Shown here: in pieces, positions 46,489 through 64,000 of the stretch | How positions within the stretch are numbered: position 1 is the first letter of the stretch | Layout: each line of letters opens with the position of its first letter | Notes under the pieces: model-generated | What the model saw: only the letters and a program-made list of their open reading frames with translations | What the model was told of the DNA's origin: nothing | Databases searched by the model: none | Assembly: GCF_008807375.1 (NCBI RefSeq) | Contig: NZ_CP043311.1 | Span: forward strand, 1,344,001 to 1,408,000 | Length of the DNA: 64,000 nt | From: Pseudomonas lalkuanensis | GTDB taxonomy: Bacteria; Pseudomonadota; Gammaproteobacteria; Pseudomonadales; Pseudomonadaceae | Direction of reading: 5' to 3' | Made by a program: the position numbers and the translations under genes

Positions 46489-46493
46489 CGTAG

Positions 46494-46612: not shown

Positions 46613-46766
46613 GGGTCCATGCCCACCGCAGTGACTTCGTAGCCCATTCCCATATCGCACTCGGTTGCGAAACAGATTCCGCCAAACGGTTTGCTGAAAC
46701 GATTTACCTAGTAACGAAACCGCGTTAAAACCGACTTCCAGTGGTCCCGATCCTGAGGAAAGTGCA

Positions 46767-48389: not shown

Positions 48390-48434
48390 GGCGGATGGGT
48401 TGCCGCCACAAGGTTATTGATCGGAGATTTACCC

Positions 48435-49335: not shown

Positions 49336-49812
49336 TCAACCCTCCGGCAGATTCGCGTAGATCTTTTCCAGCGTGCCGTTGAGCTTGGCGATCTGGGCTT
49401 CGGTGAGGTCCTTGAAGCTGTTGGTGAAGATGTGCGCGGTGTTCACCTGGATCTCTTCCACCATGTGCCGGCCCTTGTCGGTGATGGTCACCTGGGTCAC
49501 CCGGCCATCGTTGCTGCACGGGGCGGTGTCCACCAGGCCGTCTTCCTTCATGCGGTAGACGATCTTGGTAACGGTGGAGAGCTTGGCGATGGCGTGCTCG
49601 GAGATTTCCGAGATGCTCGACTGGCCGTTCTCCTTGAGGATGAAGAGGATGCGCCAGCGCGGGATGTCCAGGTCGATCTTCTTCAGGGTCTTTTCCATGG
49701 CCATGTTGTAGCGGCCATAGACGCGGGCGATCCAGTAGAAGGGGAACTCCTCCTTCTTGAAATCGTCGCTGGCGGGGTTGTAACGGTTGAGGCGCTTTTT
49801 CGGGGTGCTCAT
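49336..49812 (-). CDS. MarR-family regulator, IacR candidate
   Basis: The 158-residue winged-helix regulator reads DDFKKEEFPFYWIARVYGRYNMAMEKTLKKIDLDIPRWRIL in its dimer helices and ISEISEHAIAKLSTVTKIVYRMKEDGLV in its DNA-binding region. The style (aromatic-rich N-terminal helix, IPRWRIL) is that of MarR regulators of aromatic catabolism such as HpaR, HpcR and IacR. In P. putida 1290 IacR represses the iac genes. Here the gene is last in the minus-strand series that diverges from iacH, 9 kb away, so IacR is the best guess. Its upstream gap holds a nested palindrome. The effector may be indole-3-acetate or an intermediate. Confidence 0.75.
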   Translation of the reverse strand: MSTPKKRLNRYNPASDDFKKEEFPFYWIARVYGRYNMAMEKTLKKIDLDIPRWRILFILKENGQSSISEISEHAIAKLSTVTKIVYRMKEDGLVDTAPCSNDGRVTQVTITDKGRHMVEEIQVNTAHIFTNSFKDLTEAQIAKLNGTLEKIYANLPEG

Positions 49813-49857
49813 GCGAGTGGTGCAAGGTTCCTGCTGACAGGGGGAGAGTTATAGGGG

Positions 49858-49893
49858 GTTGCGCGTGGGCTGTCGACAGCCATATGACGCAAC
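49858..49893. promoter_or_regulatory. Nested palindrome upstream of the MarR gene (candidate operator)
   Basis: GGCTGTCGACAGCC (14 bp, perfect) is flanked by GTTGCG on the left and CGCAAC on the right, giving a two-level dyad. It lies 46-81 bp before the MarR start. MarR proteins commonly bind such dyads in their own promoters. Confidence 0.5.
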
Positions 49894-49916
49894 CTTGACC
49901 CCAATCAGCACCCGTC

Positions 49917-49935
49917 GGCTGCCGCGAGGGCAGCC
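49917..49935 (-). terminator. Hairpin after the PAS-MCP gene
   Basis: GGCTGCC and GGCAGCC form a 7-bp stem with loop GCGAG, 9 bp past the receptor stop. There is no T-tract, so it may pause or protect the RNA rather than fully terminate it before the MarR gene. Confidence 0.5.
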
Positions 49936-49943
49936 GGCGGTGC

Positions 49944-51485
49944 TCAGCCGTGCAGGAACCGCTGGGCCAGGTCGAGCTGGGAGCGGGCCAGCTGGTGCAG
50001 CTCCTGGCCGATCTGGGTACTGCGCTGGGCCTGGCCGGCGCTCTGTTCGGCGAGGCCGGCGATCCGCGCGATCTGCCGGCTGATCTCCTCGGCCACCTGG
50101 CCTTGCTGCTCGATGGCGGTAGCCATCTGCAGGCTCATGCCGCTGATCTGGCCCACTTCGCCGCTGATGCGCCGCAGGGATTCGCGCACCTGTTCCACGT
50201 CGGTGGTGGACTGCTGCGCGGCCTGTTCGCCCCGTTGCGCCGTGGCCAGGGCCTGGGCGCTGCCGTTGCGCAGGCGCTCGATGGACTGCTGGATCTGGCC
50301 GGTGGAGTCGCGGGTCCGCGAGGCGAGGGTGCGCACCTCGTCGGCCACCACGGCGAAGCCCCGGCCGGACTCCCCGGCTCGCGCCGCCTCGATCGCCGCG
50401 TTCAGCGCCAGCAGGTTGGTCTGCTCGGCGATGCTCTGGATCACCTCGGCTATGCCGCTGATGGACTCGATGGATTCGGCCAACTGGCCCACCGCCATGC
50501 CGATGTCCTCCACGGAGCCGTGCAGGGTCTGCATCGAGGCCTGGCTCTGGCCGGCCAGGCGGTCGCCATCCCGTGCCAGCTCGTCCACCGCCTGGGTGGC
50601 CTGGGCGCTGTGCTGGAGGTTGCGCGACAGTTCGTGGATGGTGCTGCTCATCTGCTGGATGGCCGCCGCCGACTGCTCGGTTTCCTCCAGCTGGCGCTCC
50701 AGCTGGCCGGCCTCGCTGGCCACCAGCTCCGAGGATTCCCCGGCGCGGCTGCGCAGGATGTCGCCGTTGATGTGGATGCGCGCCATCACCGTGCGCAAAC
50801 GCAGCTGCAAGCTGCCCATGGCCATGTCCAGCAGGGCGTCGGCACCACCGCGCTGGCTGTAGGCCGGTGCCAGCAGCGGGTCGCTGTAGACCTGTGGATG
50901 ACTCGCCAGGCCCCGAATCACGCCGCGTTGGCGTACATGGGCGGCCTGCAGGCTGATGGCTCCAGTCCCGACGAGCAGGGCCAGGCCGAGACGGCCGTCG
51001 AGCTCCCCGGCCAGGGTTGCGCCGACCAGCAGCAGGCCACCGAGTGCCGCGACGCTGTGTTCGCCCAGCAGGCGCAGCGCCCGTGTCGCGGCCGGTTCGG
51101 CCGGCTTGCCCTGGCGCAGGCGCGCATAGAGGGCGTCGGCGCGCAGGCAGGTGGCGCGGTCCATGGGGTGGTAGACGGTGCCCAGGGCCACCAGCTGACC
51201 GCCCTCGAACAGTGGCACCACATAGAGGTCGCTCCAGAAGGTGCCGCCCTCGCGGTGGCGGCCCATCAGCGGGCCGTTCCAGGGCACCCCGGCGCGCAGG
51301 GTGCGCCACATGCCGTCCAGCACAAGGGGTGGCATGCCCGGGTGGTTGATCAGGTCGTAGCCCTTGCCCAGCAGTTCCTCGCGGCTGTAGCCGCAGAGGT
51401 CCAGGTAGGCGTCGTTGCAGGCCAGCACCCGGCCTTCCGGGTCCAGGCGGGAAATGGGCGGTTCGGTGAAGTCCGTCAGGCTCAT
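49944..51485 (-). CDS. Aer-like PAS chemoreceptor linked to the iac region
   Basis: The 513-residue receptor has an N-terminal PAS domain (about 8-110) in the Aer style: [33 protein letters not shown] and [18 protein letters not shown]. Aer PAS domains bind FAD and report redox state. A hydrophobic hairpin at about 141-180 anchors it to the membrane, and the cytoplasmic domain carries [19 protein letters not shown] near 350. It is encoded 13 bp after a class II aldolase gene, within the minus-strand transporter operon. Energy taxis during aromatic acid metabolism would fit this context. No periplasmic ligand domain is present. Confidence 0.88.
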
Positions 51486-51498
51486 CAGGGGCGCTCCA

Positions 51499-52266
51499 TC
51501 ACCAGTCCAGGCTGCGGCCGGCGCGCATCTTGCGCACCATGGCGTCGAAGAACTTGGTGGCGAAGCCGCTCTCGCGGATCAGCATGGCGGTGAGGTCGGT
51601 GCACTTCTGCTGGATGGCCAGCGGCAGCGGGTTGTCCTCGCCACCGAGGGCGCCGGCGGCGCACTGGATCTCCGCCGCGCGCTGCACCGTCCAGAGCAGG
51701 AAGAAGGTCTTGGCGATGCTGCTCTCGCCCACCGCGATGCCGTGGTTGCGCAGCACCAGGATGTGCTTGTCGCCGAGGCTTTCGAGCATGCGTCCCTTCT
51801 CGTCCTCGAACAGGGTGATGCCTTCGAACTCGTGGTAGCCGATGCGGCCATACAGCTGCGCGCCGTAGAAGTCGTCGTGGGCGAAGCCCTTTTTCTTCTG
51901 GACGATGGCCGAGATGGGGGTGGTGTGGGTGTGGATCAGGCAGTGGATGTCGTCGCGGGCGCCGTGCACCGCGCTGTGCAGGGCGAAGCCGGCGGGGTTG
52001 GCGTCGTAGGGCGAGTCCTCCAGCTTGTGGCCGTCGAGGTCCACCTTGAGCAGGTTGGCCGGGGTGACTTCGCTGTAGTTGAGGCCGAAGGGGTTCACCA
52101 GATAGTGGTGGGCCGGCCCCGGCAGGCGCGCGGAAATGTGGTTGAAGATGGTCTCCGTCCAGCCGAAGAAATCCACCAGGTGGTAGCAGTGGGCGAGCTG
52201 CACGCGCAGCGCCCATTCTTCGTCGCTGCAGTGGCGGGGTTGCTGGGTTGGGGCAAGGGCGTTCAT
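51499..52266 (-). CDS. Class II aldolase/adducin-family protein
   Basis: The 255-residue protein belongs to the AraD/fuculose-phosphate aldolase family. Metal histidines are in [12 protein letters not shown] and in [12 protein letters not shown], with a possible catalytic acid in NHISARLPG upstream. It lacks an obvious sugar-phosphate partner kinase. It sits between a PanE-type gene (14-bp gap) and the Aer-like receptor gene (13-bp gap) in the putative auxin-uptake operon. Class II aldolase homologues in aromatic pathways can act as decarboxylases or hydrolases. The reaction here is unknown. Confidence 0.85.
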
Positions 52267-52280
52267 CTGGACTCTCCGAT

Positions 52281-53267
52281 TCAGGGGCGGGGCTGGGCGC
52301 CGCGAAAGCGCGCCAGCGCGATCAGGTGGCGGGTGACAGGCATGGGCAGGTCAAGGCGATCGGCCAGTTCCAGCACCGCGTCGCCGATGGCGGCCAGCTC
52401 CAGGGGCCGGCCCTTGTCGTAGTCCTGGAGCATCGAGGTGCGTACCGGGCCCATGCCGGCGCCCAGGTCCAGGAAGGTCTGTGGATCGATGTCGATGCGC
52501 GCGCCGTAGGCGGCGGCGGTGAGCAGCGCCTCGCGCAGGCAGGCACCGGCCAGTTCGCGCAACCCGGGCTGGCCGTAGAGCTGCTCCAGGGTGGCGCCGC
52601 TGACCACCGAGAGCGGGTTGGAGCTGAGGTTGGCGATGGCCTTGGTCCACACCGAGTCGCGGATGCGCTCGCTGGCGCGGGCCTCGATGCCGGCGGATTC
52701 CACCAGTTCGCGCAGGTGTCGGAGGCGCGGGGAGAGGCGGTTGTCCGGCTCGCCGAAGATCATCAGGTGGGGGTTCTGCGCCTCGGCCACGGCGGGGGCC
52801 GGGCACTGCGCGGTGATGAACACCACGCAACCGATCACCCGCGCCAGGTCGAGGCCTTCGGCGAGGGCACCGTCCGGGTCCACGGCGTGGATGCGCTGGC
52901 CGGCGAAGCGGCCTTCCAGGCCGTGGAAGTACCACCAGGGCAGGCCGTTGACCACCGGCACCACCAGGCTGTCGGCCTGCAGCAGGGGCTGGATGTCGGC
53001 CACCAGGGCGGGCAGGGCGTCGGCCTTGGCGCAGAGGAAGACGATGTCCTGGGGCCCCAGGTCGGCGGCGCGGTCGCTGGCCGGCACGCGCACGAAGTGA
53101 TGGCCGTCCAGGTCATCGAGGTGGATGCCATCCTGGCGGATGGCGGCGAGGGTGGCGCCACGGGCGAGCACGCTCACCGGGTGGCCGGCGTCGGCCAGGC
53201 GCGCGGCGAGGGTGCAGCCGATGGCACCCGCCCCGGCGATGCAGATGCGGCTGGGGAAAGATGTCAT
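52281..53267 (-). CDS. PanE/ApbA-family 2-oxoacid reductase (ketopantoate reductase-like)
   Basis: The 328-residue protein has an N-terminal Rossmann motif RICIAGAGAIGCTLAARLADAG (about 7-28) and the C-terminal ApbA helical domain, with VWTKAIANLSSNPLSVVSG holding the catalytic lysine (SVWTKAIANL). NGLPWWYFHG is also typical. It probably reduces a 2-keto acid with NADPH. It is unlikely to serve pantothenate synthesis in this setting. Many PanE paralogues are found in catabolic operons with ABC transporters. Its substrate cannot be read from sequence. Confidence 0.85.
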   Translation of the reverse strand: MTSFPSRICIAGAGAIGCTLAARLADAGHPVSVLARGATLAAIRQDGIHLDDLDGHHFVRVPASDRAADLGPQDIVFLCAKADALPALVADIQPLLQADSLVVPVVNGLPWWYFHGLEGRFAGQRIHAVDPDGALAEGLDLARVIGCVVFITAQCPAPAVAEAQNPHLMIFGEPDNRLSPRLRHLRELVESAGIEARASERIRDSVWTKAIANLSSNPLSVVSGATLEQLYGQPGLRELAGACLREALLTAAAYGARIDIDPQTFLDLGAGMGPVRTSMLQDYDKGRPLELAAIGDAVLELADRLDLPMPVTRHLIALARFRGAQPRP

Positions 53268-53315
53268 GTGGGTCCTCCTTGGACGGTGGCCCGGCCTGGC
53301 GGCCGGGCCGGGGGA

Positions 53316-54107
53316 TCATCCGGCGAGCATCTCCTGGTGCTTGCTCGCCAGGCCCAGGTAGGCCTCGATCACGCGCGGGTCGTCGGCCAACTGGGCGGCG
53401 GGGCCCTGCATGGCGATCTGGCCGGTTTCCAGCACATAGGCGTAGTCGGCCACCCGCAGGGCGGCGCGGGCGTTCTGCTCCACCAGCAGGATCGACACCC
53501 CCTGCTGGCGCAGGGTGCTGATGATGCGGAAGATCTCGCGGGTGATCAGCGGCGCCAGACCCAGGCTCGGCTCGTCGAGCATCAGCAGCCTGGGCTTGGC
53601 CATCAGCGCGCGGCCCACGGCGAGCATCTGCCGCTCGCCGCCGGAGAGGGTGGCGGCCATCTGGTCGCGGCGCTCCTTCAGGCGCGGGAACAGGGTGTAG
53701 ACCTCGTCCAGGGTGTCGGCGTGGTCGCGCTTGCCGCTGCGGTGGCGCTGGAAGGCGCCCAGCAGCAAGTTGTCGGCGACCGTCATGCTGCCGAACAGCT
53801 CGCGCTTCTCCGGCACCAGGCCGAGCCCGCGGGCGACCATCACTTCCACTTCCGGCACCGCTTCCAGGCTGCCGTCGAAGGCCACCCGGCCACGGGAACC
53901 GAGCACCCCCATGATGGCCGAGAGCAGGGTGGTCTTGCCGGCGCCGTTGGGGCCGATCACGGTGACGATCTGCCCCTGGCCGACCCGCAGGCTGGCGTTG
54001 GACAGGGCCTCCACCTTGCCGTAGGCGACGGACAGGTCGCTGACTTCCAGCACCGGGCTGGACACCTGGTTCTCAGGCTGCCTGAGGTTCTCTACCTGCA
54101 TGTTCAT
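53316..54107 (-). CDS. Branched-chain-amino-acid-type ABC transporter ATPase (LivF-like)
   Basis: The 263-residue ATPase of the HAAT family has Walker [10 protein letters not shown], the signature LSGGERQML and Walker [14 protein letters not shown]. It follows the LivF pattern. It begins at the ATG that overlaps the fused permease-ATPase stop by one base (TGATG), with GGAGG 8 bases upstream. A further ATG two codons later is possible. It works with the fused LivM-LivG product and LivH. The 48-bp gap to the PanE-like gene keeps the operon continuous. Confidence 0.92.
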
Positions 54108-55906
54108 CACTCGGCTCCTCCGAGATAGGCTTCCAGCACGGCGGGGTCCTTCTGTACGTCGGCCGGCAGGCCATGGGCGATGCGCTGGCCGAACTCCATC
54201 ACCACGACCCGGTCCACCAGGCCCATCACGAAGTCCATGTCGTGCTCCACCAGGAGGATCGCCATGCCTTCGCTGCGCAGGCGGCTGAGAAGGATGCCCA
54301 GGGCTTCCTTCTCCTTGTGGCGCAGGCCGGCGGCGGGCTCGTCGAGCAGCAGCAGGCAGGGGTTGGCGCACAGGGCGCGGGCGATCTCGAGGATGCGCTG
54401 CTGACCCAGGGCCAGGCTGCCGGCCTCCGCGTGCAGGTACTCGCCCAGGCCCACCCGTTCCAGCTGGCGGCGGGCTTCGGCCAGCAGCTCGGCTTCCTCG
54501 GTGCGGTCCAGGCGCAGGGCGGCGGCGAGCACGCCCTTGTGGCCGCGCAGGTGGGCGCCGATGGCGACGTTCTCCAGCACGCTCATTTCCGCCAGCAGCT
54601 TGACGTGCTGGAAGGTGCGGCTCATGCCCATGCGGGCGATGTCGCGGGAGGGGATGCCGTTGATCTTCTGGCCACGGAACAGCACCTCGCCGGAGGTGGG
54701 GGTGTCCACGCCCGAGAGCTGGTTGAACAGGGTGCTCTTGCCGGCCCCGTTGGGGCCGATCAGGGCGAGGATCTCGCCGGCGCGGACCTCCAGGTTCATG
54801 TCGTTGTTGGCCACCAGGCCGCCGAAGCGACGGGTCACGTTGCGCGCTTCCAGCAGCACTTCACCGGCGGCCGGCAGTTCGCGGCGCGGAAGCTCGGCGG
54901 CGTCTGCCAGGGCCCTGGCGGCCTTGCGCGGCTTCCAGGACTCCGGCACCAGGCGCAGCAGCATGGGCCAGAGGCCGCCCGGGGCACGTTGCATCAGGAG
55001 CACGATGATCAGGCCGAAGACGATCACCTCGTAGTTGCCGGTGCTGCCGAAGAGTTGCGGCAGGAGGTCCTGCAGCCACTGCTTGAGCAGGGTCAGCACA
55101 CCCGAGCCCAGCAGGGCGCCCCAGACGCTGGCCACGCCGCCGATCAGCGCCATGAACAGGTAGTCGATGCCCATGTGCAGGCCGAAAGGCGTGGGGTTCA
55201 CGAAGCGCTGGGTATGGGCGTAGAGCCAACCGGAGAGGGCGGCGAAGAGGGCGGAGATGAGGAAGATCACCAGCTTGGCGCGGAAGGTGTTCACGCCCAT
55301 GGATTCGGCCATCAGCTGGCCGCCCTTGAGGGCACGGATGGCGCGGCCTTCACGGGAGTCCAGGAGGTTCTGGGTGATCAGCATGGCGCACAGCAGCACG
55401 GCCCAGATCAGGTAATAGATCTCCTCGCCCTTGTCCAGCTGCCAGCCGAACAGGGAGATCGAGGGCAGGCCGCTGACGCCGGTGTGGCCGCCGAGGGACT
55501 CCAGGGTGCCGAACAGGTAGTAGAGCGACAGGCCCCAGGCGATGGTGCCCAGCGGCAGGTAGTGGCCGGACAGCTTGAGGGTCAGGGCGCCCAGCAACAG
55601 GGCTACCGCGCCGGTGAGCAGCAGGCCCACCAGCAGGGTCAGCCAGGGCGAGGCGCTGGCCCAGGCCAGCCAGCCCGGCAGGTCCTGCACGGTGGTCAGG
55701 TAGGCGCTGGTATAGGCACCGAGGCCGACGAAGGCGGCCTGGCCGAAGCTGGTCATGCCGCCGACGCCGGTGAGCAGCACCAGGCCCAGGACCACCAGGG
55801 TGTAGAGGCCGATGTAGTTCAACAGGGTGACGTAGAAGGGCGGCAGCACCATCGGCGCGACCGCCAGCACGGCCACCAGGGCAAGGATCAGGTAGCGCGG
55901 TTTCAT
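54107..55906 (-). CDS. Fused permease-ATPase of a branched-chain-type ABC transporter (LivM-LivG)
   Basis: The 599-residue protein joins a LivM permease (about 1-330, ten or so membrane helices, with [15 protein letters not shown]) to a LivG ATPase (about 350-599; Walker [11 protein letters not shown], signature [15 protein letters not shown], Walker [12 protein letters not shown]). In most HAAT systems these are separate; fusions are known in aromatic and amide transporters. A linker of about 25 residues ([17 protein letters not shown]) separates the parts. Start and stop overlap the flanking genes by 4 and 1 bp. The substrate is likely to be an amphipathic acid. Confidence 0.93.
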
Positions 55907-56940
55907 TCATCGTCCTCCAGGTGACGGCTGGTGAGGGAGCGCCAGAGCAGGAAGGGGATGATCAGGGTGAAGACGATGATCTCCTTGTAGGTGCTGGCCC
56001 AGAACATCGAGAACGCTTCGATCAGGCCGACGCCCAGGGCCCCCAGGGCCGCCACCGGGTAGCTCACCAGGCCGCCGATGATGGCGCCGACGAAGCCCTT
56101 GAGGCTGATGACGAAACCGGAGTCGAAGTACAGGGTCGTGATGGGGGCGATGAGGATGCCCGACAGCGCGCCGATGAAGGTGGCCAGGGCGAAGGTCGCC
56201 TTGCCTGCCAGGTTCGGCGAGATGCCCATCAGCCGTGCGCCGAGGCGGTTCACCGCGGTGGCGCGCAGGGCCTTGCCGTAGAGGCTGCGCTCGAAGAACA
56301 GGAACAGGCCGATGATCATCGCCAGGGACACCGCGATCACCCACAGGGTCTGGCTGTTGAAGGTCACCGGGCCGAGGGTCAGGCTGGCTTCGGAGAAGGG
56401 GGCGGTGCGCGCGCCTTCCGGCCCGAACAGCAGCAGGGCGATGCCCACCATGGCCACGTGTACGGCGATGGAAACGATCAGCAGCATCAGGGAGCTGGCC
56501 GAGGCCAGCGGCTGGAACGCCAGGCGATAGATCTGCGGGCCAAGGGGCACTACCAGTGCCAGGGTCAGCAGCGCCTGCAGCGCCATCGGCAGTTCGGCCA
56601 GTGGCAGGGTACGCACCAGGCCCACCAGGGCCAGGGCGTAGGCGAGCTTGAGCACGATCCGCCTGGGGAAGCGGAAGCCGCGGTTGGCGCGGGTGGCGTC
56701 AAGCAGGTCCATGGCGCAGTCGGCCAGGGTCAGGGCGAGCAGCAGCCAGACCAGGGCGGTGGGCTGGCCGGCCTGCAGGGCGGCCATGGTCAGCGCGCCG
56801 TAGGTGACGAATTCGCCCTGGGGGATCAGCAGGATGCGCGTGACGGTGAAGACCAGCAGGATCGACAGGGCCAGCAGCGCGTAGATCGCGCCGTTGGTGA
56901 TGCCGTCCTGGCCGAGCAGCAGGGCTATCTGGAGATTCAT
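55903..56940 (-). CDS. Branched-chain-type ABC transporter permease (LivH-like)
   Basis: The 345-residue permease is of the LivH type, with the start NGAIYALLALSILLVFTVTRILLIPQGEFVTYGAL and late GFVGAIIGGLVSYPVAALGALGVGLIEAF. It is about 50 residues longer than E. coli LivH because of an inserted helical segment after the third helix (roughly 75-125). It overlaps the next gene by 4 bp (ATGA). It is separated by 161 bp from the binding-protein gene; that gap holds two hairpins. It should form the channel with the LivM part of the fusion. Confidence 0.93.
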   Translation of the reverse strand: MNLQIALLLGQDGITNGAIYALLALSILLVFTVTRILLIPQGEFVTYGALTMAALQAGQPTALVWLLLALTLADCAMDLLDATRANRGFRFPRRIVLKLAYALALVGLVRTLPLAELPMALQALLTLALVVPLGPQIYRLAFQPLASASSLMLLIVSIAVHVAMVGIALLLFGPEGARTAPFSEASLTLGPVTFNSQTLWVIAVSLAMIIGLFLFFERSLYGKALRATAVNRLGARLMGISPNLAGKATFALATFIGALSGILIAPITTLYFDSGFVISLKGFVGAIIGGLVSYPVAALGALGVGLIEAFSMFWASTYKEIIVFTLIIPFLLWRSLTSRHLEDDE

Positions 56941-57001
56941 GACGGGAACTCTTGTTGCGGTATGGGGCGCGCGAGGCGCTCAGTTGCGGCCGAGTGCGTA
57001 C

Positions 57002-57078
57002 GGTGGATGACGCTTTTTTCATCCACCTTCGGCGTTCGGCCGGGCTCCGCTTGGTGGACATGAAAAGCGATGTCCACC
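57002..57078. repeat. Double hairpin between the binding-protein and permease genes
   Basis: GGTGGATGA/TCATCCACC (57002-57027) and GGTGGACAT/ATGTCCACC (57053-57078) are two 9-bp stems, each with an 8-base loop; the outer edges also match (GTAGGGTGGA / TCCACCGTAC on the minus strand). This is a dispersed Pseudomonas palindrome type. In this place it may let the binding protein be made in excess over the permeases. Confidence 0.75.
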
Positions 57079-57101
57079 CTACGAGAGCCCGGGCCTGAGG
57101 A

Positions 57102-58253
57102 TCAGTTGCGGCCGAGCAGGGTCCAGGTGCCGTTCTTCACCTGGATCAGTTCGCGACCGCGTTCGTCGAAGCCGCTGTGGTCCTCGGGGGTCATGTTGTA
57201 GACGCCCTGGGTGGCGGCCACTTCATGGCTGGCTTCCAGGGCGTCGCGCAGGGCCGCGCGGAACTCCGGAGTGCCCGGCTGCGCCTTGGCGGCGGCCTCG
57301 GGGATGGCCTTCTGCAGCAGGATGCCGGCGTCGAAGGTGTTGGCGCCGAATGTGGCCGGCTTGCTGCCGTTGAGCTTCTCGTAGGCGGCCACGTATTCGC
57401 CGGCGATGGTCTTGGACGGGTGGGTGTCGGGCATCTGGTCGAGCACCAGCATCAGGCTGGCGGCGAGGATGGTGCCTTCCACCTTCTTGCCGCCGAGCTT
57501 GAGGAAGTCCGGCAGGGCGGCACCGTGGGTCTGGTACATCTGGCCACGGTAGCCCTGGTCGAACAGGGTGGTCTGCGGGAGCACCGCGGCGCTGCCCGGT
57601 GCGGCTACGAGTACGGCGTCGGGGCGGGCGGCGAGGACCTTCAGGCTCTGGCCGGTGACCGAGGTGTCCTGGCGCTGGAAGCGCTCGGTGGCCACCAGCT
57701 TGATGCCGTGTTCGGCGGCCATGGCGGCCATCACCTTGGACCAGTTCTCGCCGTAGGGGTCGGCAGTGCCGATGAAGCCCAGGGTCTTCACCCCACGGGC
57801 GTTCATGTCCTGCACCAGGGCCTTGGCGATCAGGTCGTCGTTCTGGGTGGTCTTGAACACCCACTTCTTCTGCTCGTTCATCGGCAGCACCACGGCGGCG
57901 GTGCCCACCGGGGCCAGCAGCGGCACGCCGGCCTCGGCGGCGAACTGGATCACGCCCATGGCATTCGGCGAACCGCTCGGGCCGATGATGGCGTCGACGT
58001 TCTCTTCGCTGATCAGTTTCTTCAGCGCCTTCACGGTGGCGGTGGGGTCGCTGCCGTCATCCAGCTGGATGTAGGTGACCTTCTGCTCGCCGGCCTGGGT
58101 GGGCAGCAGCGGCACCGAGTTCTTCTGCGGAATGCCGACCAGGGCGATGGGGCCAGTGGAGGAGGTGATGACGCCGACCTTCACGTCCGCCTGGGCATAG
58201 GCGAAGCAGGCGGCACTGAGCAGCAGGGTGGACACGGCTTGTTTGAAGTGCAT
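57102..58253 (-). CDS. Branched-chain-type ABC transporter substrate-binding protein (LivK-like)
   Basis: The 383-residue periplasmic protein has a signal peptide ending CFAYAQA and a type I periplasmic-binding fold: VGVITSSTGPIALVGIPQKN and IIGPSGSPNAMGVIQFAAEAGVPLLAP. It is the first gene of the minus-strand transport operon. CGGAG precedes the ATG. The binding family includes aromatic acid and amide receptors as well as leucine receptors. Upstream lie a sigma-54-like promoter and an AACAACAAGAA motif in the leader. The shared promoter region with iacH suggests indole-3-acetate or a related compound, which is inference. Confidence 0.9.
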   Translation of the reverse strand: MHFKQAVSTLLLSAACFAYAQADVKVGVITSSTGPIALVGIPQKNSVPLLPTQAGEQKVTYIQLDDGSDPTATVKALKKLISEENVDAIIGPSGSPNAMGVIQFAAEAGVPLLAPVGTAAVVLPMNEQKKWVFKTTQNDDLIAKALVQDMNARGVKTLGFIGTADPYGENWSKVMAAMAAEHGIKLVATERFQRQDTSVTGQSLKVLAARPDAVLVAAPGSAAVLPQTTLFDQGYRGQMYQTHGAALPDFLKLGGKKVEGTILAASLMLVLDQMPDTHPSKTIAGEYVAAYEKLNGSKPATFGANTFDAGILLQKAIPEAAAKAQPGTPEFRAALRDALEASHEVAATQGVYNMTPEDHSGFDERGRELIQVKNGTWTLLGRN

Positions 58254-58344
58254 GACGTACTCCGGGTTGCAAGGCTATTGGAGAGGCAATGATCCGCAGG
58301 GCGCGGCTGGCTCCTTCGGGCCGCTGCGCGGATGGCTTGCCGCC

Positions 58345-58355
58345 TTCTTGTTGTT
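58345..58355 (-). promoter_or_regulatory. CA motif in the leader of the binding-protein transcript
   Basis: On the minus strand AACAACAAGAA contains two overlapping AAnAAnAA matches. It lies about 92 bases before the binding-protein ATG, further than most characterised Crc sites. Confidence 0.35.
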
Positions 58356-58407
58356 CTGGCGCCTGTTGGCGCTACCGGCGGGTAACCCGCTCGGCGGGAT
58401 CAGCAAC

Positions 58408-58423
58408 TGCACCTCCCGTGCCA
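58408..58423 (-). promoter_or_regulatory. Sigma-54-like promoter of the transporter operon
   Basis: On the minus strand TGGCACGGGAGGTGCA has GG and GC ten bases apart, the exact -24/-12 spacing of RpoN promoters (consensus TGGCAC-N5-TTGCA; one mismatch in the -12 box). Transcription would start about 145 bases before the binding-protein ATG. A sigma-54 activator is required but not encoded in the window. Confidence 0.55.
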
Positions 58424-58555
58424 GAAAAATCCGCGCCGTCCTGGTGCGCGCCCCGTTTCGCCGTCTCGGCGCCTTCCGATCCCGGCCCACGTCCGGGGGC
58501 TTCGGCGCCCTTCGCCGGGGCCGCTCCGGGCAGCCCCTGACACCAGACGCCACAG

Positions 58556-58588
58556 GCCCTCCCATGCCATTCGGAGGGCGCTTTTTTT
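58556..58588 (+). terminator. Orphan intrinsic terminator on the plus strand
   Basis: GCCCTCC and GGAGGGC form a 7-bp stem with a 10-base loop, followed by GC and seven T. No plus-strand gene ends nearby, so it may end a small RNA transcribed from 58254-58555 or cut readthrough into the iac promoter region. Confidence 0.65.
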
Positions 58589-58666
58589 GGGTGAAAAATA
58601 GAGAATTAAAGGCAATAAAAATGCTGTTTTTTGGGGTGAAAAATTCGCGATGAACTGCAAAAAATA

Positions 58667-58683
58667 TGTTCGATAAACGAACA
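58667..58683. promoter_or_regulatory. PcaR/IclR-like palindrome
   Basis: TGTTCGATAAACGAACA is a perfect 6-bp dyad around ATAAA. Its core differs at two places from the PcaR site GTTCGATAATCGCAC of P. putida. It lies 300 bp upstream of iacH and 414 bp upstream of the binding-protein gene, in the AT-rich part. Confidence 0.5.
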
Positions 58684-58891
58684 GGAGTACGGACTGTTTC
58701 TAAGGGGTGTTTCGCTTCATATAAACGAGAGTGGTTCTCTTTTTGTTCATATATTACTGAAAAATAAGGGTTTTATTTTAAATTTTGAGTGCGTGAAGAA
58801 TTTTTGCGCTGTTACAAAACTGCACGAAACTGGTGCCCTGATACGTGAAAGTGCACCGAATCTACACACTATTTTTCCAGTGATAATTCAA

Positions 58892-58920
58892 TTGACATTT
58901 CACGTAATTCTTCCGATTCT
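58892..58920 (+). promoter_or_regulatory. Candidate sigma-70 promoter of the iac operon
   Basis: TTGACA is followed after 17 bases by the weak -10 GATTCT. TTTCACGTA, half of an inverted pair with TACGTGAAA 47 bp upstream, covers the spacer, so a repressor such as the MarR protein could block this promoter. The -10 box is poor. Confidence 0.35.
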
Positions 58921-58962
58921 GAATTTACGCAATCGACACCCCGCCCGGGGTGCTCGGGCACC

Positions 58963-58970
58963 AACAAGAA
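58963..58970 (+). promoter_or_regulatory. Hfq/Crc CA motif at the iacH start
   Basis: AACAAGAA matches AAnAAnAA and ends 12 bases before the preferred iacH ATG, the same distance as the motif at gltR. Catabolite repression of indole-acetate use would follow. Confidence 0.5.
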
Positions 58971-58982
58971 CGCCAATGGGTG

Positions 58983-60101
58983 ATGCAGATGACGATAGTG
59001 GTCGAGCGACTGGAGCTGGGTGGCACGGGGCGAACCGTGATGGTGAAAGACACCATCGATATCGCCGGCCACCCGACCCGCGCTTCCAGTCGTGCGCTGG
59101 AGGAAGCGCCCGACGCCGAGCGCCATGCCGACGTGGTCCAGGCCCTGCTGGACGCCGGCTGCCGCATCATTGGCAAGACCAGCCTGCATGAGCTGGCCTT
59201 CGGCACCACCGGCCTGAATGCCTGGACCGGCACTGCGGAAAATCCGCGTTATCCCGGCCGCATTCCCGGCGGTTCTTCCAGTGGATCGGCCGCTGCCGTG
59301 GCCGCCGGACTCTGCGACTTCTCCCTGGGCACCGATACCGGTGGCTCGGTACGCGTGCCTGCTGCTTGTTGCGGTGTGTTCGGCCTGAAACCCACCTTTG
59401 GCCGCGTCAGCCGTGCCGGCGTGATGCCGGCCGAGACAACCCTCGATTGCGTGGGGCCCTTCGCCGCCAGCATCGGCCTGCTGATCGAAGCCATGACTGC
59501 CATCGATCCTTCCTTCAGTGCGCTGCCCACCGTCAGTGGCATTCGCATCGGCGTCGTGCCGGTGGCGGCCAACCCGGAAGTGCAGGCCGCCCTGGACGCC
59601 GTGCTGGAAGCTGCGGATTTCCCCCTGGAAGTCATGCCGCTGCCAGGCATGCAGGCCGCCTATGACGCGGGCCTGGCCATCATCAACCGAGAAACCTGGA
59701 ACGGCTGTGGTCACCTGGTCGAAACCGGCCTGGTGGGCGCCGACATCGCCGCCCGCCTGCTGGCCGCCAGCAACACCAGCGATGCTGCCCTCGCCGATGC
59801 CGAATCAGTACGCGCTGCCTTCACCGCCGAGGTGGATGCCGCCCTGGCGCGCTGCCCCATCCTCGCCCTGCCGACCATGCCGGATTACCCGGCGTTGGTG
59901 GCGGATGCCTTTGACACCCGTGCGGCCATCGGCATGACCGCCTTCGTGCGGCCGTTCAATCTCACTGGCCACCCGGCACTGAGCATTCCCTTCGAGGGCG
60001 CCTCGAAGCTGCCGGTGGGCCTGCAACTCGTTGCCGCCAAGGGCGCGGACGAACTGTTGCTGGCAGTCGCCCGCGAGCTTGTGCAGCGCCTCGAACAATA
60101 A
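58983..60101 (+). CDS. iacH: IacH-type amidase-signature protein
   Basis: The 372-residue protein belongs to the amidase-signature family. The Ser-cis-Ser-Lys triad is readable as Lys22 (MVKDTID), Ser98 (GGSSSGS) and Ser122 (DTGGSVR), and GTDTGGSVRVPAACCG is the signature core. It is first in the order iacH-iacA-iacB-iacI-iacC-iacD known from P. putida 1290 indole-3-acetate catabolism; its exact step there is not settled. The start is uncertain between two ATGs two codons apart (and a GTG 11 codons earlier); there is no strong ribosome site, only the CA motif. It is short compared with most amidases (about 450-500). Confidence 0.86.
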   Translation: MQMTIVVERLELGGTGRTVMVKDTIDIAGHPTRASSRALEEAPDAERHADVVQALLDAGCRIIGKTSLHELAFGTTGLNAWTGTAENPRYPGRIPGGSSSGSAAAVAAGLCDFSLGTDTGGSVRVPAACCGVFGLKPTFGRVSRAGVMPAETTLDCVGPFAASIGLLIEAMTAIDPSFSALPTVSGIRIGVVPVAANPEVQAALDAVLEAADFPLEVMPLPGMQAAYDAGLAIINRETWNGCGHLVETGLVGADIAARLLAASNTSDAALADAESVRAAFTAEVDAALARCPILALPTMPDYPALVADAFDTRAAIGMTAFVRPFNLTGHPALSIPFEGASKLPVGLQLVAAKGADELLLAVARELVQRLEQ

Positions 60102-60126
60102 CCAAGAAGCCCACCTGGAGAGCCCC

Positions 60127-61299
60127 ATGTCTTCGCTAAGCGAGCTGGATTACCAGCGCCCCACCCCGATTACCGCGAGTGAAGGATTCCAGGCACTGCT
60201 CGCCGACATCCGCGAGCGTGCCCGGCGCGAGGAATTCGACCGGCAGAAATTCATTTCCCAGGACGTGATCGAGCGCTTCAAGGAACTCGGCGTCTACCGT
60301 GCCCTGGTGCCCACACGCTTCGGCGGCGACCAGCGCTCGCCGATGGAGTTCTGCCAGATGGTGGAAGAGATTTCCGCCGCTGATGGTTCCGCCGGCTGGG
60401 TCGCCAGCTTCGGCATGAACCCGGTGTACCTGGCCGCACTGCCGCTGGCGACCCTGGAAAAGGTCTATGCCAACGGCCCGGATGTAGTCTTCGCCGGCGG
60501 CATCTTCCCGCCGCAACCGGCCGCCTTCGTCGAGGGCGGACTGGAAGTGAACGGGCGCTGGAAGTTCTCCAGTGGCTGCATGGGCGCCAACCTGATCGGT
60601 GTCGGCATCAGCCCGAAGAACGGTGACACCGTCGGCCTGCCGCGCCTGGCCGTGATGCCGCGCGAGAAGGTGAAGATCGAGGAAACCTGGGACGTGATCG
60701 GCCTGATCGGCACCGGCAGCCACGATGTGGTGATCGAAGGCGTGGTCGTGCCGGAGGAGTGGACCTTCGTTCGCGGTGGCCCGGCCAATCTCGACGAACC
60801 GATGTTCCGCTATCCCTCGCTGTCCTTCGCCACCCAGGTGCTCTCGGTGGTCGGCCTGGGCGTTGCCCGCGCCGCCCTGGATTACCTCTCCGGCATGGCC
60901 ACTGGCCGTTTCTCCGTCACCGGTGCCCCGGCTCTGGCCGACCGCCCGCTGGCGCAGATGCAGATGGCCAAGGCCGAAGCCGAGCTGCGCGCCGCCCGCG
61001 CCTGGTTCTTTGAGGCCATGGAAAACGCCTGGGCCACCCTGCTGGCCGGCGACCCGGTGAGCGTGGAGCAGACCAACCTGCTGCGCCTGTCCTCCACCCA
61101 CGCCACCCGCGTATCCGCCGAAGTGGCGCGCACCGCGCAAATGCTCTCCGGCATGACCGGCGTGTACCGGGACAACCCCCTGTCGCGCTTCGTCAACGAC
61201 ACCCTGGTGGTTACCCAGCACGCGTTCATGGGCGACATGACCTACCAGAACGCCGGCGCGATCTTCTTCGGCAACAAGCCGCTACCCGGCTACCTGTGA
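60127..61299 (+). CDS. iacA: IacA: acyl-CoA-dehydrogenase-fold flavin monooxygenase of indole-3-acetate
   Basis: The 390-residue protein has the acyl-CoA dehydrogenase fold of group D flavin monooxygenases. Segments EEISAADGSAGWVASFG, KFSSGCMGAN, VIGLIGTGSHDVVIEGVVVPEEWTF and LARTAQMLSGM-like helix (VARTAQMLSGMTGVYR) are typical of IacA, HsaA and related hydroxylases. IacA hydroxylates indole-3-acetate at position 2, starting its degradation, and needs reduced flavin from IacG (beyond this window). GGAG lies 8 bases before the ATG. The 25-bp gap to iacH and the next gene support one operon. Confidence 0.9.
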   Translation: MSSLSELDYQRPTPITASEGFQALLADIRERARREEFDRQKFISQDVIERFKELGVYRALVPTRFGGDQRSPMEFCQMVEEISAADGSAGWVASFGMNPVYLAALPLATLEKVYANGPDVVFAGGIFPPQPAAFVEGGLEVNGRWKFSSGCMGANLIGVGISPKNGDTVGLPRLAVMPREKVKIEETWDVIGLIGTGSHDVVIEGVVVPEEWTFVRGGPANLDEPMFRYPSLSFATQVLSVVGLGVARAALDYLSGMATGRFSVTGAPALADRPLAQMQMAKAEAELRAARAWFFEAMENAWATLLAGDPVSVEQTNLLRLSSTHATRVSAEVARTAQMLSGMTGVYRDNPLSRFVNDTLVVTQHAFMGDMTYQNAGAIFFGNKPLPGYL

Positions 61300-61326
61300 A
61301 TTCCAACTGACTGATCGGTGATTGTG

Positions 61327-61689
61327 ATGAGCGATAAGAAAGCCCTGCGCGTCCTGTTCTGCATGGGTATCAACCAGAATTTCTTCGACGCCCCGCGTGA
61401 GGAACAACTGCAGGTCTGGGCCGCCTTCAGCGAGATGTGGAACGGCATCCACGACCTGCCCGGCGTGAACGTGTTCGGCAACATGGACGACGACCAGAGC
61501 ATGGTCGGACCAAGCACCGGCTACCCCTGGACCACCTACCTGCTGGCCGACGTGCCGGACATCGAGACCGTCCACGCCGCCTGCAACCTGTTCCGCACGA
61601 CCCCGGTGGGCGAGGGCACCTACAAGCTCTGGCGTTACTGCAAGGTCGAGGCCCGCACCGGCCGCGAACTGATCATCCAGCGCGCGTGA
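61327..61689 (+). CDS. iacB: IacB family protein
   Basis: The 120-residue protein reads ALRVLFCMGINQNFFDAPREEQLQVWAAFSEMW and has the later FRTTPVGEGTYKLWRYCKVEARTGREL. It matches the small IacB protein that always accompanies iacA, as I recall the family. No catalytic residues are defined; it may help IacA. The ATG at MSDKKALR follows a weak GTGATTGTG stretch; an ATG three codons earlier is possible. The start lies 27 bp after iacA and the stop touches the next gene. Confidence 0.84.
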   Translation: MSDKKALRVLFCMGINQNFFDAPREEQLQVWAAFSEMWNGIHDLPGVNVFGNMDDDQSMVGPSTGYPWTTYLLADVPDIETVHAACNLFRTTPVGEGTYKLWRYCKVEARTGRELIIQRA

Positions 61690-61694
61690 CCGCC

Positions 61695-62210
61695 ATGAGC
61701 CAAGCCCTCGAACAGCGCCTGCGCCAACTGGAAAACGAACACGCCGTGCGCGCCTGCATGAACCGCTACATGGAGCTGTGCGACGCCCTCGACGCCCGCA
61801 CGCCCCTGGATGAGCTGGCCGGCCTGTTCACCGCCGACGCCGTCTGGGAAGGCAAGGGCGCGAAGTACGCCAAGAGCTTCGGTGGTTACCGGGGCCGCGA
61901 GGCGATCCGCGCCATGTTCGCCACCTATATGCCGGAGCCGGCGCACTTCGCCCTGAACGTGCACTTCCTCTGCTCGGAGCTGATCCGTGTCGAGGGCGTG
62001 GAAGCCACCGGCAGCTGGGTGATGTTGCAGACCTCCACCTTCGCCAGCGGCGCCTCGCACCTCAACGCGGCGCGCCTGACGGTGAAGTTCCGCGAGGAGG
62101 AGGGCGCCTGGCGCATGGCGCATTTCCAGACCGAGAACCTGTTCAGCCGCCCGGTGGAGGCGTGGAACAGCGACGCGCACCTGCCGGTGCCCGAGCGCGA
62201 CGGGCAATAG
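61695..62210 (+). CDS. iacI: IacI: SnoaL/NTF2-like protein
   Basis: The 171-residue protein has the cone-like NTF2/SnoaL fold: HAVRACMNRYMELCDALD, LAGLFTADAVWEGKG and GYRGREAIRAMFATYMP, then HLNAARLTVKFREEEGAWRM. IacI in the iac cluster is a predicted isomerase or dehydratase-like protein that acts on indole intermediates. The ATG is 5 bp after the iacB stop; a GTG overlapping that stop is the alternative. The 147 bp after its stop hold a REP-like element before iacC. Confidence 0.83.
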   Translation: MSQALEQRLRQLENEHAVRACMNRYMELCDALDARTPLDELAGLFTADAVWEGKGAKYAKSFGGYRGREAIRAMFATYMPEPAHFALNVHFLCSELIRVEGVEATGSWVMLQTSTFASGASHLNAARLTVKFREEEGAWRMAHFQTENLFSRPVEAWNSDAHLPVPERDGQ

Positions 62211-62224
62211 GACGACGCGGAATG

Positions 62225-62299
62225 CAGGAGCGAGGGGGACGCCGAGTTCTTGCTTGCGAAAAAGTGGTATCCGAGGTTCGCGAGCAAGCTCGCTCCTAC
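62225..62299. repeat. REP-like palindrome inside the iac operon
   Basis: CAGGAGCGAG...TGCTTGCGAA at the left pairs loosely with TTCGCGAGCAAGCTCGCTCCTAC at the right. It separates iacI and iacC and may stabilise or attenuate the RNA. It is like the element at 40313. Confidence 0.6.
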
Positions 62300-62309
62300 G
62301 GATGCCGCC

Positions 62310-62317
62310 AACAAGAA
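62310..62317 (+). promoter_or_regulatory. CA motif upstream of iacC
   Basis: AACAAGAA matches AAnAAnAA, 40 bases before the iacC start. The distance makes a Crc role less sure than at iacH. Confidence 0.3.
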
Positions 62318-62357
62318 ATTTGAGTGAGTCGGCGCATTGCGCGGACGAGGAGTGATC

Positions 62358-63632
62358 GTGACCAACCTGATCGAAACCGTGAACCTGGCCAGCTCGCCGG
62401 CCGACCTGGTACTGCACGACCGCGTGCACACCTCCCTCTACACCGACGCCCGCATCTTCGACGAAGAGCTGGAGAAGGTCTTCTACAGCACCTGGATCTG
62501 GGTGGCCCACGCCAGCGAGATTCCCGATAACGGCAGCTACAAGAGCACCTACATCGGCAAGCAGCCGGTGATCGTCGTGCGCGACCGCAAGAAGGACGTG
62601 CATGTGCTGCTCAACCGTTGCCGCCACCGTGGCGCCACCGTTTGCGAACACAAGAAGGGCAAGGCCAACAGCTTCGTCTGCCCCTACCACGGCTGGAGTT
62701 ACGCCCTGGACGGCAGCCTGCGCGGCGTGCCGCACCCGGAGAGCTACGCCGACTGCCTGGACAAGGGCGAACTGCCCCTGGTCAGCCTTCGTGTCGAGCA
62801 ATACAACGGCATGATCTTCGCCACCTTCAAGGACGACATCGAGCCGCTGGTGGACTTCCTCGGCCCGGCCAGGAAGTGGATCGATCTGTTCATGAAGCAG
62901 GGCGCCGGCTACGGCGTGAAGGTTTCCGGTGAGCACCGCTTCCGCTTCCCCGGCAACTGGAAGATCCAGCTGGAAAACACCACCGACGCCTACCACTTCC
63001 CGCTGGTGCACAAATCCTTCCTGTCCTCGGTGGACGAGCAGACCCTGGAACTCTTCGACTTCGTCGAAGGCCCGGGCTACGTCGAGGATCTCGGCAACGG
63101 CCACAGCGTGATGGTGATGATCCCGGACCTCGTGGACCTGGAAGCCGACCTGGACAAACCGATCCCCGAGCGCTTCGAGGCCCTGGCCATCGATCTGCGC
63201 GCCGAGGGCATCGAGGAGCAGCAGGTGCGCCGCATCGTCCGTGCCGTGGGCGGCTCGGGCTTCAACCTCAACCTGTTCCCCAACGTGGCCTGCTCCATGG
63301 CCTTCTTCCGCGTGCTGCAGCCGATCTCGGTGAACGAGACCGAGATCCACCACGCGGTGATCACCATGGATGGCGGCCCGGCCGTGGCCAACCGCTACCG
63401 CCTGCGCCTGCACGAGCACTTCCAGGGCCCCATGGGCTTCGGTACCCCGGACGATTCCGAGGCCTGGGAGCGCGTGCAGAAGGGCGCCCAGGCGGGCACC
63501 GACCTCTGGATCATGCTCAACCGCGGCCTGCCCGGCGAGAAGCCGAGCGAGGACGGGCTGATCAGCGACGTGAGCGCCGAGACCGGCATGCGTGCGGCCT
63601 ATCAGCAGTGGAAAAAGATGATGTCCGCCTGA
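62358..63632 (+). CDS. iacC: IacC: Rieske ring-hydroxylating dioxygenase, large subunit
   Basis: The 424-residue alpha subunit has a Rieske [2Fe-2S] domain with Cys88-X-His90 and Cys108-X2-His111 (17 residues between), and a catalytic domain with the mononuclear iron ligands near Asp210, His213 and His218 (TTDAYHFPLVH). IacC with IacD hydroxylates an oxidised indole-acetate intermediate on the way to catechol. It starts at GTG with GAGGAG 5-6 bases upstream; no good ATG exists in the first 40 residues. IacD follows after 88 bp that include a palindrome. Confidence 0.9.
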   Translation: MTNLIETVNLASSPADLVLHDRVHTSLYTDARIFDEELEKVFYSTWIWVAHASEIPDNGSYKSTYIGKQPVIVVRDRKKDVHVLLNRCRHRGATVCEHKKGKANSFVCPYHGWSYALDGSLRGVPHPESYADCLDKGELPLVSLRVEQYNGMIFATFKDDIEPLVDFLGPARKWIDLFMKQGAGYGVKVSGEHRFRFPGNWKIQLENTTDAYHFPLVHKSFLSSVDEQTLELFDFVEGPGYVEDLGNGHSVMVMIPDLVDLEADLDKPIPERFEALAIDLRAEGIEEQQVRRIVRAVGGSGFNLNLFPNVACSMAFFRVLQPISVNETEIHHAVITMDGGPAVANRYRLRLHEHFQGPMGFGTPDDSEAWERVQKGAQAGTDLWIMLNRGLPGEKPSEDGLISDVSAETGMRAAYQQWKKMMSA

Positions 63633-63655
63633 CCCTCATCCGGCGCCTCGCGCCA

Positions 63656-63679
63656 CCTTCTCCCGCGAGCGGGAGAAGG
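63656..63679. repeat. Hairpin CCTTCTCCCG/CGGGAGAAGG between iacC and iacD
   Basis: A perfect 10-bp stem with loop CGAG. It is related to the palindromes at 37343 and 42530. It may set the IacC:IacD ratio. Confidence 0.7.
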
Positions 63680-63720
63680 CAAGGGGTTGGCTACGCAACG
63701 CACTTTCTAAGAGACGAACC

Positions 63721-64000
63721 ATGAACCTTGAATTGCTCAACCACGTCAGTGCCTTCATCTGGCAGGAAGCGGACATGCTCGACCACGGCGACTTCGACGC
63801 CTGGCTGAACCTGTGGACCGAGAAGGGCACCTACATCATCCCGATCGATCCGAACGAGACCGACTTCGAGAACACCCTGAACTACGCCTACGACGACCAC
63901 CATATGCGTCAGTTGCGCGTGCAGCGCCTGATCGGCGGCGAGTCCATCTCCACCAGCCCACGCGCCCGCACCGTGCGCGCCCTGTCGCGCTTCCGCGTGC
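63721..64000 (+). CDS. iacD: IacD: ring-hydroxylating dioxygenase small subunit, 3' end outside window
   Basis: The 93 visible residues (MNLELLNHVSAFIWQEADMLDHGDF...) fit the NTF2-like beta subunit that partners IacC. WLNLWTEKGTYIIPIDP and DDHHMRQLRVQRL are usual early segments of such subunits. A weak AGAGACG site precedes the ATG. The rest of the iac operon (E, F, G expected) lies beyond the window. Confidence 0.88.
   Translation, partial: MNLELLNHVSAFIWQEADMLDHGDFDAWLNLWTEKGTYIIPIDPNETDFENTLNYAYDDHHMRQLRVQRLIGGESISTSPRARTVRALSRFRV

Follow-up and report, generated by a model that had tools for sequence, protein, structure and literature searches.

We analysed a 64,000-nucleotide window of Pseudomonas lalkuanensis DNA (NZ_CP043311.1, positions 1,344,001-1,408,000, from a 6.06-Mb single-contig genome; "the window" denotes this whole stretch, numbered from its first letter) and found a divergent gene cluster that, judged from its sequence, is probably an iac-type locus that serves the uptake and breakdown of indole-3-acetic acid (IAA), with a dedicated Liv-type ATP-binding cassette (ABC) importer and a chemoreceptor encoded together with it. 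The leftward arm (minus strand) comprises, from the middle outward, livK, livH, a fused livM-livG, livF, panE, a class II aldolase gene, a PAS-type methyl-accepting chemotaxis protein (MCP) gene, mcp, and marR, and the rightward arm (plus strand) comprises iacHABICD within the window, followed by iacEFG beyond its end. The original prediction of two long divergent transcripts, one for iacHABICD and one for the Liv transporter, PanE, aldolase, receptor and MarR regulator, was borne out in genes, frames and strands: reading frames, family models and translations showed that all named genes are open frames in the orientation claimed. This gene order recurs in other species, and the arrangement is thus not due to chance.

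All nine iac genes (iacA, B, C, D, E, F, G, H and I) lie in one cluster. The pathway encoded by iacHABICDEFG converts IAA to catechol, and the genes past the window, encoding an OprD porin, a NIPSNAP protein, a CatM/BenM-like LysR regulator, muconate cycloisomerase and catechol 1,2-dioxygenase, include catechol-degradation genes that fit this end product. The first gene, iacH (58983..60101, +), encodes an amidase-family protein, assigned by amidase models and synteny. It is followed by iacA (60127..61299, +), which encodes a flavin-dependent oxygenase related to HsaA/HpaH by family models, with homologues of at least 73% identity in 25 family genomes. The iacB product (61327..61689, +) is without a Pfam match and has an 83% homologue annotated "IacB protein" in Acinetobacter, iacI (61695..62210, +) is SnoaL-like (SnoaL_4), and iacC (62358..63632, +) encodes a biphenyl-dioxygenase-like Rieske dioxygenase alpha subunit (Rieske and Ring_hydroxyl_A). 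The beta subunit gene iacD (63721..64197, +), assigned by reading frame and synteny, runs past the window end at 64000. IacC matched 7yls, which appears to be Variovorax IadD, at just 4e-38 and over part of its length, so that the locus does not carry the IadD/IadE oxygenase of the iad type of auxin degradation. In one other genome (locus L057, genome G108), the IacA match came in two overlapping pieces, residues 2-279 and 273-391, reflecting a frameshift or a sequencing error.

The outermost gene of the leftward arm (49336..49812, -) encodes a 158-residue protein of the Pfam MarR family. Its best structure match was 7kua (4e-63), followed by 7l19 (4e-43) and 7l1i (9e-25), and all three codes are listed in PMC9613470, a study of MarR regulators of auxin catabolism whose available passages report structures from P. 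putida, E. soli, B. japonicum and A. baumannii. Because its best matches are the codes listed there, the window MarR was taken as IacR. The complete gene set and IacR together predict an iac-type IAA catabolic locus.

The importer is complete and of the Liv type (HAAT). It consists of the LivK-like periplasmic binding protein (57102..58253, -; 383 residues; Peripla_BP_6), a LivH-like permease (55903..56940, -; 345 residues; UrtB/LivH matches), a LivM permease fused to the LivG ATPase (54107..55906, -; 599 residues; BPD_transp_2, ABC_tran and BCA_ABC_TP_C) and a LivF-like ABC ATPase (53316..54107, -; 263 residues), the last assigned by LivF/UrtE-type matches and synteny. LivK is of the aromatic-acid type. 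Its best structure matches were 3sg0 (2.5e-102), 4dqd (6.7e-101) and 7ylt (2.2e-82), chains of 3uk0, 4fb4, 4jb0 and 3ukj matched at 6e-81 to 2e-79, and the next match, a branched-chain type by its label, reached just 1e-14. Seven distinct chains, including 4fb4 and 7ylt, thus matched at E <= 1e-60, placing LivK in the aromatic-acid (B-III) subgroup.

We searched the same 248 family genomes for IacA, LivK, the receptor and the aldolase, taking at least 73% identity as a close IacA. IacA was present at E <= 1e-60 in 54 genomes and at 73% identity or more in 25. LivK at 76% identity or more was found in 24 of the 248, namely in 23 of the 25 close-IacA genomes and in 1 of the 223 others (Fisher p = 4e-29; further Fisher tests gave 3e-19 and 3e-15, all ignoring the relatedness of the genomes). 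The sole carrier outside the close-IacA set (G009) encodes an IacA of 62% identity on a different contig, one further and weaker LivK match, the 25th (48%, G085), also lies in an IacA-positive genome, and none of the 194 IacA-negative genomes had LivK at E <= 1e-100. The original prediction had named a transporter widespread without iac as grounds for its rejection, and this was not observed: all 24 family genomes with LivK at 76% or more also carry IacA. Two close-IacA genomes lack LivK: one retains iacR and iacH-G with the transporter missing (G011), and the other has a gene order like that of P. putida 1290 (G135). Among the other 29 IacA-positive genomes, 28 are without LivK at 76% or more, and in the 16 whose synteny was read liv was beside iac in none; the synteny reading of the 54 left out 13 genomes, all at 51-53% IacA identity.

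The receptor and aldolase genes were confined to the same set. An mcp orthologue (E <= 1e-135) was present in 16 of the 25 close-IacA genomes versus 0 of the 223 others, and the aldolase (E <= 1e-80) in 13 of 248, all among the 25. Eleven of the close-IacA genomes carry both genes, five mcp alone, two the aldolase alone, five the transporter without either, and two no transporter. One of the five with the transporter alone (L037) has an mcp remnant, 7% of the gene, between marR and livF; there the receptor was probably lost. In another locus (L053, genome G143), about 5 kb of other DNA lies between livK and livH, and the remaining locus is intact.

Beyond the family, a LivK-alignment scan of one genome per species (84,980 species) gave 273 relatives, of which the best 80 were taken. 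Among these 80, livK adjoins iac in 53, iad in 21 and neither in 6, so that the liv-iac linkage, for which the original prediction had proposed a synteny search, does recur in other species. The iad loci were identified by IadD: that of L147 matched 7yls at 2.5e-195, and those of the other 20 loci are 79-85% identical to it. Loci of the Pseudomonas group and of two marine genera (L135, L136) are divergent, those of Zoogloea and relatives are co-directional with livK after iacG, and in Achromobacter, Bordetella, Azoarcus and others the transporter lies downstream of iad genes. The locus of P. resinovorans DSM 21078 (L078) holds the receptor, aldolase, panE, transporter and iac genes, and the stretch examined contains no marR. 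In one Zoogloea locus (L118), a tautomerase gene (9233-9637) lies between iacG and livK and a hemerythrin gene (14870-15469) between livF and marR. An Acinetobacter plasmid (NCu2D-2) carries cat genes, marR (36%), iacHABICDEFG, OprD, liv, panE and aldolase genes, its IacG being 29% identical to that of the window. One or more of livH, livMG and livF are missing from 13 of the 80 loci, 12 of which have just 0.2-2.5 kb after livK. As for the six unlinked loci, two belong to genomes that carry IacA elsewhere (L077, L086) and four are short or cut contigs (L138, L148, L151, L152). In L077 (5593-9110, P. entomophila WZ006), iac is not adjacent to the receptor-aldolase-panE-liv arm, which borders OprD, NIPSNAP and major facilitator superfamily (MFS) genes.

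These surveys also bear on whether the transporter could be a general importer of branched-chain amino acids or amides that lies beside iac by accident. The permease genes of its relatives are annotated as branched-chain amino acid transporters, as such an importer would be. However, the LivK matches (2e-79 to 2.5e-102 for the 4fb4/7ylt group versus 1e-14) disfavour the branched-chain-only binding that the original prediction had named as a refutation, livK is linked to iac or iad in 74 of the best 80 of 273 loci, and the co-occurrence with close IacA is strong. In a class-wide search of 369 genomes, LivK at E <= 1e-70 was found in just 3; apart from that of the own genome, the matches were distant (48% and 43%), and no iac cluster lay beside these two, where iad was not looked for. 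We rejected a branched-chain amino acid transporter on LivK matches, class-wide rarity, co-occurrence and auxin-gene linkage, and consider this explanation highly improbable. The transporter stands beside two auxin pathways whose common denominator is IAA and no pathway-specific intermediate, which is the main reason for naming IAA as its ligand.

An IAA-specific binding protein is known from the Variovorax iad locus, IadK2, which, according to the available part of PMC10374108, binds IAA at nanomolar level and has 4FB4 with caffeic acid as its nearest fold. We infer that 7ylt is IadK2, because F168, W172, R199 and S104 fit the chain at an offset of 27, with Thr125 as a misfit. At the six pocket positions mapped, LivK is identical to IadK2 at three (S104/S95, R199/R194 and F308/F302, IadK2/LivK). 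Across the best 80 LivK loci, S95, Y167, R194, F302 and N305 are invariant (80/80), and position 163 varies: 57 loci have T, 22 have L (18 of these lie beside iad) and one has S. By this alignment, the LivK pocket is conserved, akin to that of IadK2 yet distinct from it. LivK was also modelled with AlphaFold on the basis of 15 close sequences, but the model had a mean predicted local distance difference test score (pLDDT) of just 55 and was set aside as poor.

Several observations weigh against a dedicated IAA importer with its own receptor. Three IadK2 pocket positions differ in LivK (F168->T163, W172->Y167 and Y311->N305), and the closest solved relatives, 3sg0 and 4dqd, hold what we take to be aryl 2-oxo acids, so that LivK may bind an indole 2-oxo or 2-hydroxy acid. 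No LivK reaches 76% in 30 of the 54 IacA-positive family genomes, which means that the importer is not needed for iac, and the locus receptor is missing from 9 of the 25 close-IacA genomes. Six of the 80 LivK loci adjoin neither pathway in the DNA examined. In L122 (from 11140), livK lies beside iac, and livH, livMG and livF are absent from the next 10 kb; this LivK may work with another permease or with none. On plasmid pAB510b of Azospirillum B510 (L169, 11963-19418), iacH (61%) is divergent to livKHMGF, followed by marR (57%); the 29 kb examined of pAB510b contain no iacA-G, and a search of this plasmid for IacC gave no match at 1e-30. A 51% IacA match lies on another plasmid of the strain, and pAB510b hints that IacH may work with the transporter; hemerythrin and 1-aminocyclopropane-1-carboxylate (ACC) deaminase genes are near the iacH-liv stretch. 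Variovorax IadK2 is reported to be dispensable (PMC10374108, PMC12633357). On the side of taxis, the part of PMC9543091 available reports that P. putida 1290 moves toward IAA by a different receptor, PcpI, and that this taxis survives iacA mutation, and in the passages available of PMC11630574 IAA lowers flagellar and chemotaxis genes in one Pseudomonas and one Achromobacter isolate, the locus being unnamed.

Some of these points would also be expected if the transporter, PanE and aldolase served a related substrate, such as indole-3-lactate, indole-3-pyruvate or an auxin amide, that is turned into IAA for iac or iad. The PanE/ApbA-type 2-oxoacid reductase (52281..53267, -; 328 residues; NF005089, ApbA and ApbA_C) and the class II aldolase/adducin-family protein (51499..52266, -; 255 residues; NF005451 and Aldolase_II) are encoded after livF beside iac, beside iad (L147) and in two Acinetobacter plasmids, and thus track the transporter rather than one pathway. 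PanE-family reductases that act on aromatic 2-oxo acids are known, the LivK pocket is unlike that of IadK2 at three of the six mapped sites, and the Azospirillum stretch examined has iacH, liv and marR without iacA-G. However, the aldolase is missing in 12 of the 25 close-IacA genomes, 10 of which keep the transporter, and the PanE-aldolase pair is missing in 24 of the 53 iac-linked and 20 of the 21 iad-linked loci, some of them on cut contigs. A related substrate as the actual purpose of the transporter is therefore possible but considerably less likely than not, and IAA import remains the preferred reading. PanE and the aldolase themselves probably convert another imported auxin-like acid. 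In L147 (15134-18672), the two genes after the transporter are followed by a CoA-ligase-like gene and a MarR gene.

The receptor (49944..51485, -; 513 residues; Pfam PAS and MCPsignal) consists of an N-terminal PAS domain (residues 12-104), a weak hydrophobic hairpin at about 144-184 and a signalling domain, without a periplasmic sensor domain. Because this domain is lacking, the receptor would read a cytoplasmic signal, and signalling by loaded LivK to the receptor was rejected for the same reason. By domain layout alone, it is not of the PcpI type: the PAS precedes the hairpin, and there is no long segment within the hairpin. Its build resembles that of E. coli Aer (8dik/31cj) and Pseudomonas Aer2, which have an N-terminal PAS, a short hairpin and a signalling domain with no long periplasmic segment, and the own genome encodes four Aer-like paralogues (37-48% over the length). 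Unlike Aer, the locus receptor is encoded in a catabolic locus, and it differs at positions that we assume to contact the flavin in Aer, which include R57, H58, D60, F66, N85, N34, W70 and W79 (Aer numbering). R57, H58, D60, F66 and N85 are kept in all four paralogues. Removal of duplicates from 37 aligned locus receptors left 29 distinct ones. Among these, R57 is kept in none (N in 27), D60 in one, and F66 and N85 in none, and H58 is retained in 25 and N34, W70 and W79 in all 29. The "Aer-like, redox-type receptor" of the original prediction thus stands as regards its build, whereas the redox-type part is unproven, because the flavin-contact positions, R57, D60 and N85 among them, are mostly lost.

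The receptor could be an ordinary flavin-binding Aer-type energy-taxis receptor that is encoded here by chance. Its PAS is closest to 3ewk, the Aer chains 8dik/31cj and 2gj3, all presumably flavin PAS domains, and the retention of N34, W70, W79 and, mostly, H58 points the same way. Against this, R57 and N85 are replaced in all 29 locus receptors and D60 in 28, all three being kept in the four paralogues. The receptor is moreover locus-specific, found only with the locus (16/25 versus 0/223), a restriction that a general energy sensor would not need. We regard chance placement of an energy-taxis receptor as doubtful. An equally tentative suggestion is that the receptor represents a new class of auxin receptor, a flavin-free Aer relative that would bind IAA or an iac intermediate in the cell, with taxis gated by its own importer and degradative operon.

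The original prediction also held that the two arms share one control region. The divergent gap is real, 729 bp between livK and iacH (58254..58982), and stands out by its composition, with a GC content of 0.53 versus 0.66-0.68 in the flanking 2-kb blocks. We compared 40 hand-picked divergent loci; family genomes, the own one among them, contributed 23 and the species scan 17, and some belong to the same genome group. Their livK-iacH gap measures 563-796 bp, and TCAATTGA overlapping TTGACA was present in 35 of the 40, 84-112 bp before iacH; this conserved site lies about 600 bp from livK. In the window it is represented by TTCAATTGAC (58887..58896, +), a palindromic core overlapping TTGACA, which makes an obvious candidate operator for IacR at the iac promoter. 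The 64-kb window contains no further copy, even with one mismatch allowed, and the ten-base pattern alone is not above chance there (1 match versus 1.63 expected at this tolerance). A search of the divergent loci for an operator common to both operons found conservation at the iacH-side site only. Joint control of both directions is plausible, although the conserved site lies only on the iacH side. A palindrome at 58668-58682, GTTCGATAAACGAAC, resembles what we take to be sites of IclR-type regulators of aromatic catabolism; it was dropped as a control site, its pattern being present in just 7 of the 40 loci.

Parts of this arrangement are already in print. The locus of Pseudomonas sp. BG33R (PMC3390384, 2012) has, like the window, iacR, an ABC transporter, iacHABICDEFG and a dedicated porin, and its authors call it an IAA uptake and catabolism pathway. 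It differs in lying on an integrative conjugative element (Island 3), whereas the window locus is chromosomal without island signs, and the passages available mention no chemoreceptor, PanE or aldolase of the window type. The cluster of Marinomonas sp. NFXS50/MWYL1 (PMC11373566, 2024) has, in the part available, iacR, a class II aldolase, a 2-dehydropantoate reductase, an ABC ATPase, a permease and a binding protein, then iacABICDEFG, with a gene labelled metal-dependent hydrolase at the position of livMG. It differs by having no MCP there and iacH at the far end, and its transport genes are called of unknown function. In P. putida 1290 (PMC6624763, 2019), genes for an MCP, an OprD-like porin and an ABC ATP-binding protein, an MFS gene and cat genes are found upstream of iac, but the iac genes themselves are arranged as iacABCDEFG-R-HI; the paper mentions no Liv operon and does not say of which type the MCP is. 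Variovorax iad (PMC10374108, 2023), as far as the text was available, is likewise an auxin-degradation operon with an aromatic-type ABC binding protein, but its pathway leads to anthranilate. Binding proteins encoded next to Achromobacter-type iad loci share 72-76% identity with the window LivK. Thus, the statement in the original prediction that such a linkage was not described does not hold: transporter-iac linkage (PMC3390384, PMC11373566), an MCP near iac (PMC6624763) and an IAA-binding protein at iad (PMC10374108) had each been reported. The part without a known precedent is the receptor: in the open-access literature searched we found no report of this chemoreceptor within a liv-iac locus.

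Work on IAA taxis and IAA responses gives a mixed picture. The available part of PMC9543091 describes PcpI as having its own ligand-binding domain (residues 38-174, outside the cytoplasm), with an amino-acid ABC transporter encoded downstream of it, and refers to Scott 2013 for the finding that the iac genes alone give KT2440 no movement toward IAA. In strain LY1, IAA raises chemotaxis proteins and membrane transporters, the locus being unnamed (PMC8383072); the passages available state that there is no regulator upstream of the degradation genes and do not mention the leftward arm. The record of Pseudomonas composti strain LY1 (L080), judged by its name and the PCLY tags in the paper to be this strain, has the same leftward mcp-aldolase-panE-liv arm. 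In one Variovorax and one Sphingopyxis, IAA raises chemotaxis genes (PMC11630574, available passages).

The original prediction had also called the locus an island. The window is without a tRNA gene, a shikimate-dehydrogenase-like neighbour is kept, and IacA occurs in 16 of the 18 genus genomes sampled (own included); on these grounds, a recently acquired island in P. lalkuanensis was rejected. The neighbour, next to marR, is full-length in 8 of 40 other loci compared and cut in a ninth. The stretch beside the locus (45799-49253) holds, in addition to this gene, KDPG-type-aldolase-like and aldehyde-dehydrogenase-like genes identified by eye. Elsewhere, copies of the locus lie on mobile DNA, on the integrative element of BG33R and on plasmids in Acinetobacter.

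Taken together, we propose that IAA entry would release IacR from the conserved site at 58887, upon which the iac operon would fire rightward and the liv operon leftward. LivK-LivHMGF would then import IAA, or an auxin very closely related to it, when external concentrations are low, and the PAS chemoreceptor would be made together with the transporter. The receptor would report a cytoplasmic consequence of IAA entry or oxidation, either a metabolite or the redox or energy state, and its output would steer cells to usable auxin.

As regards how degraders acquire and locate auxin, binding of IAA was shown for IadK2 (PMC10374108, available part), no importer was shown as needed in the literature surveyed, and taxis to IAA has been dissected in a single strain. 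The transporter cassette, common to two auxin pathways, and the receptor, restricted to one, provide concrete candidate genes. If the proposed reading is true, uptake, perception and breakdown of a plant hormone would form one inherited unit in many species of the Pseudomonas group, which would bear on which root bacteria can blunt auxin effects.

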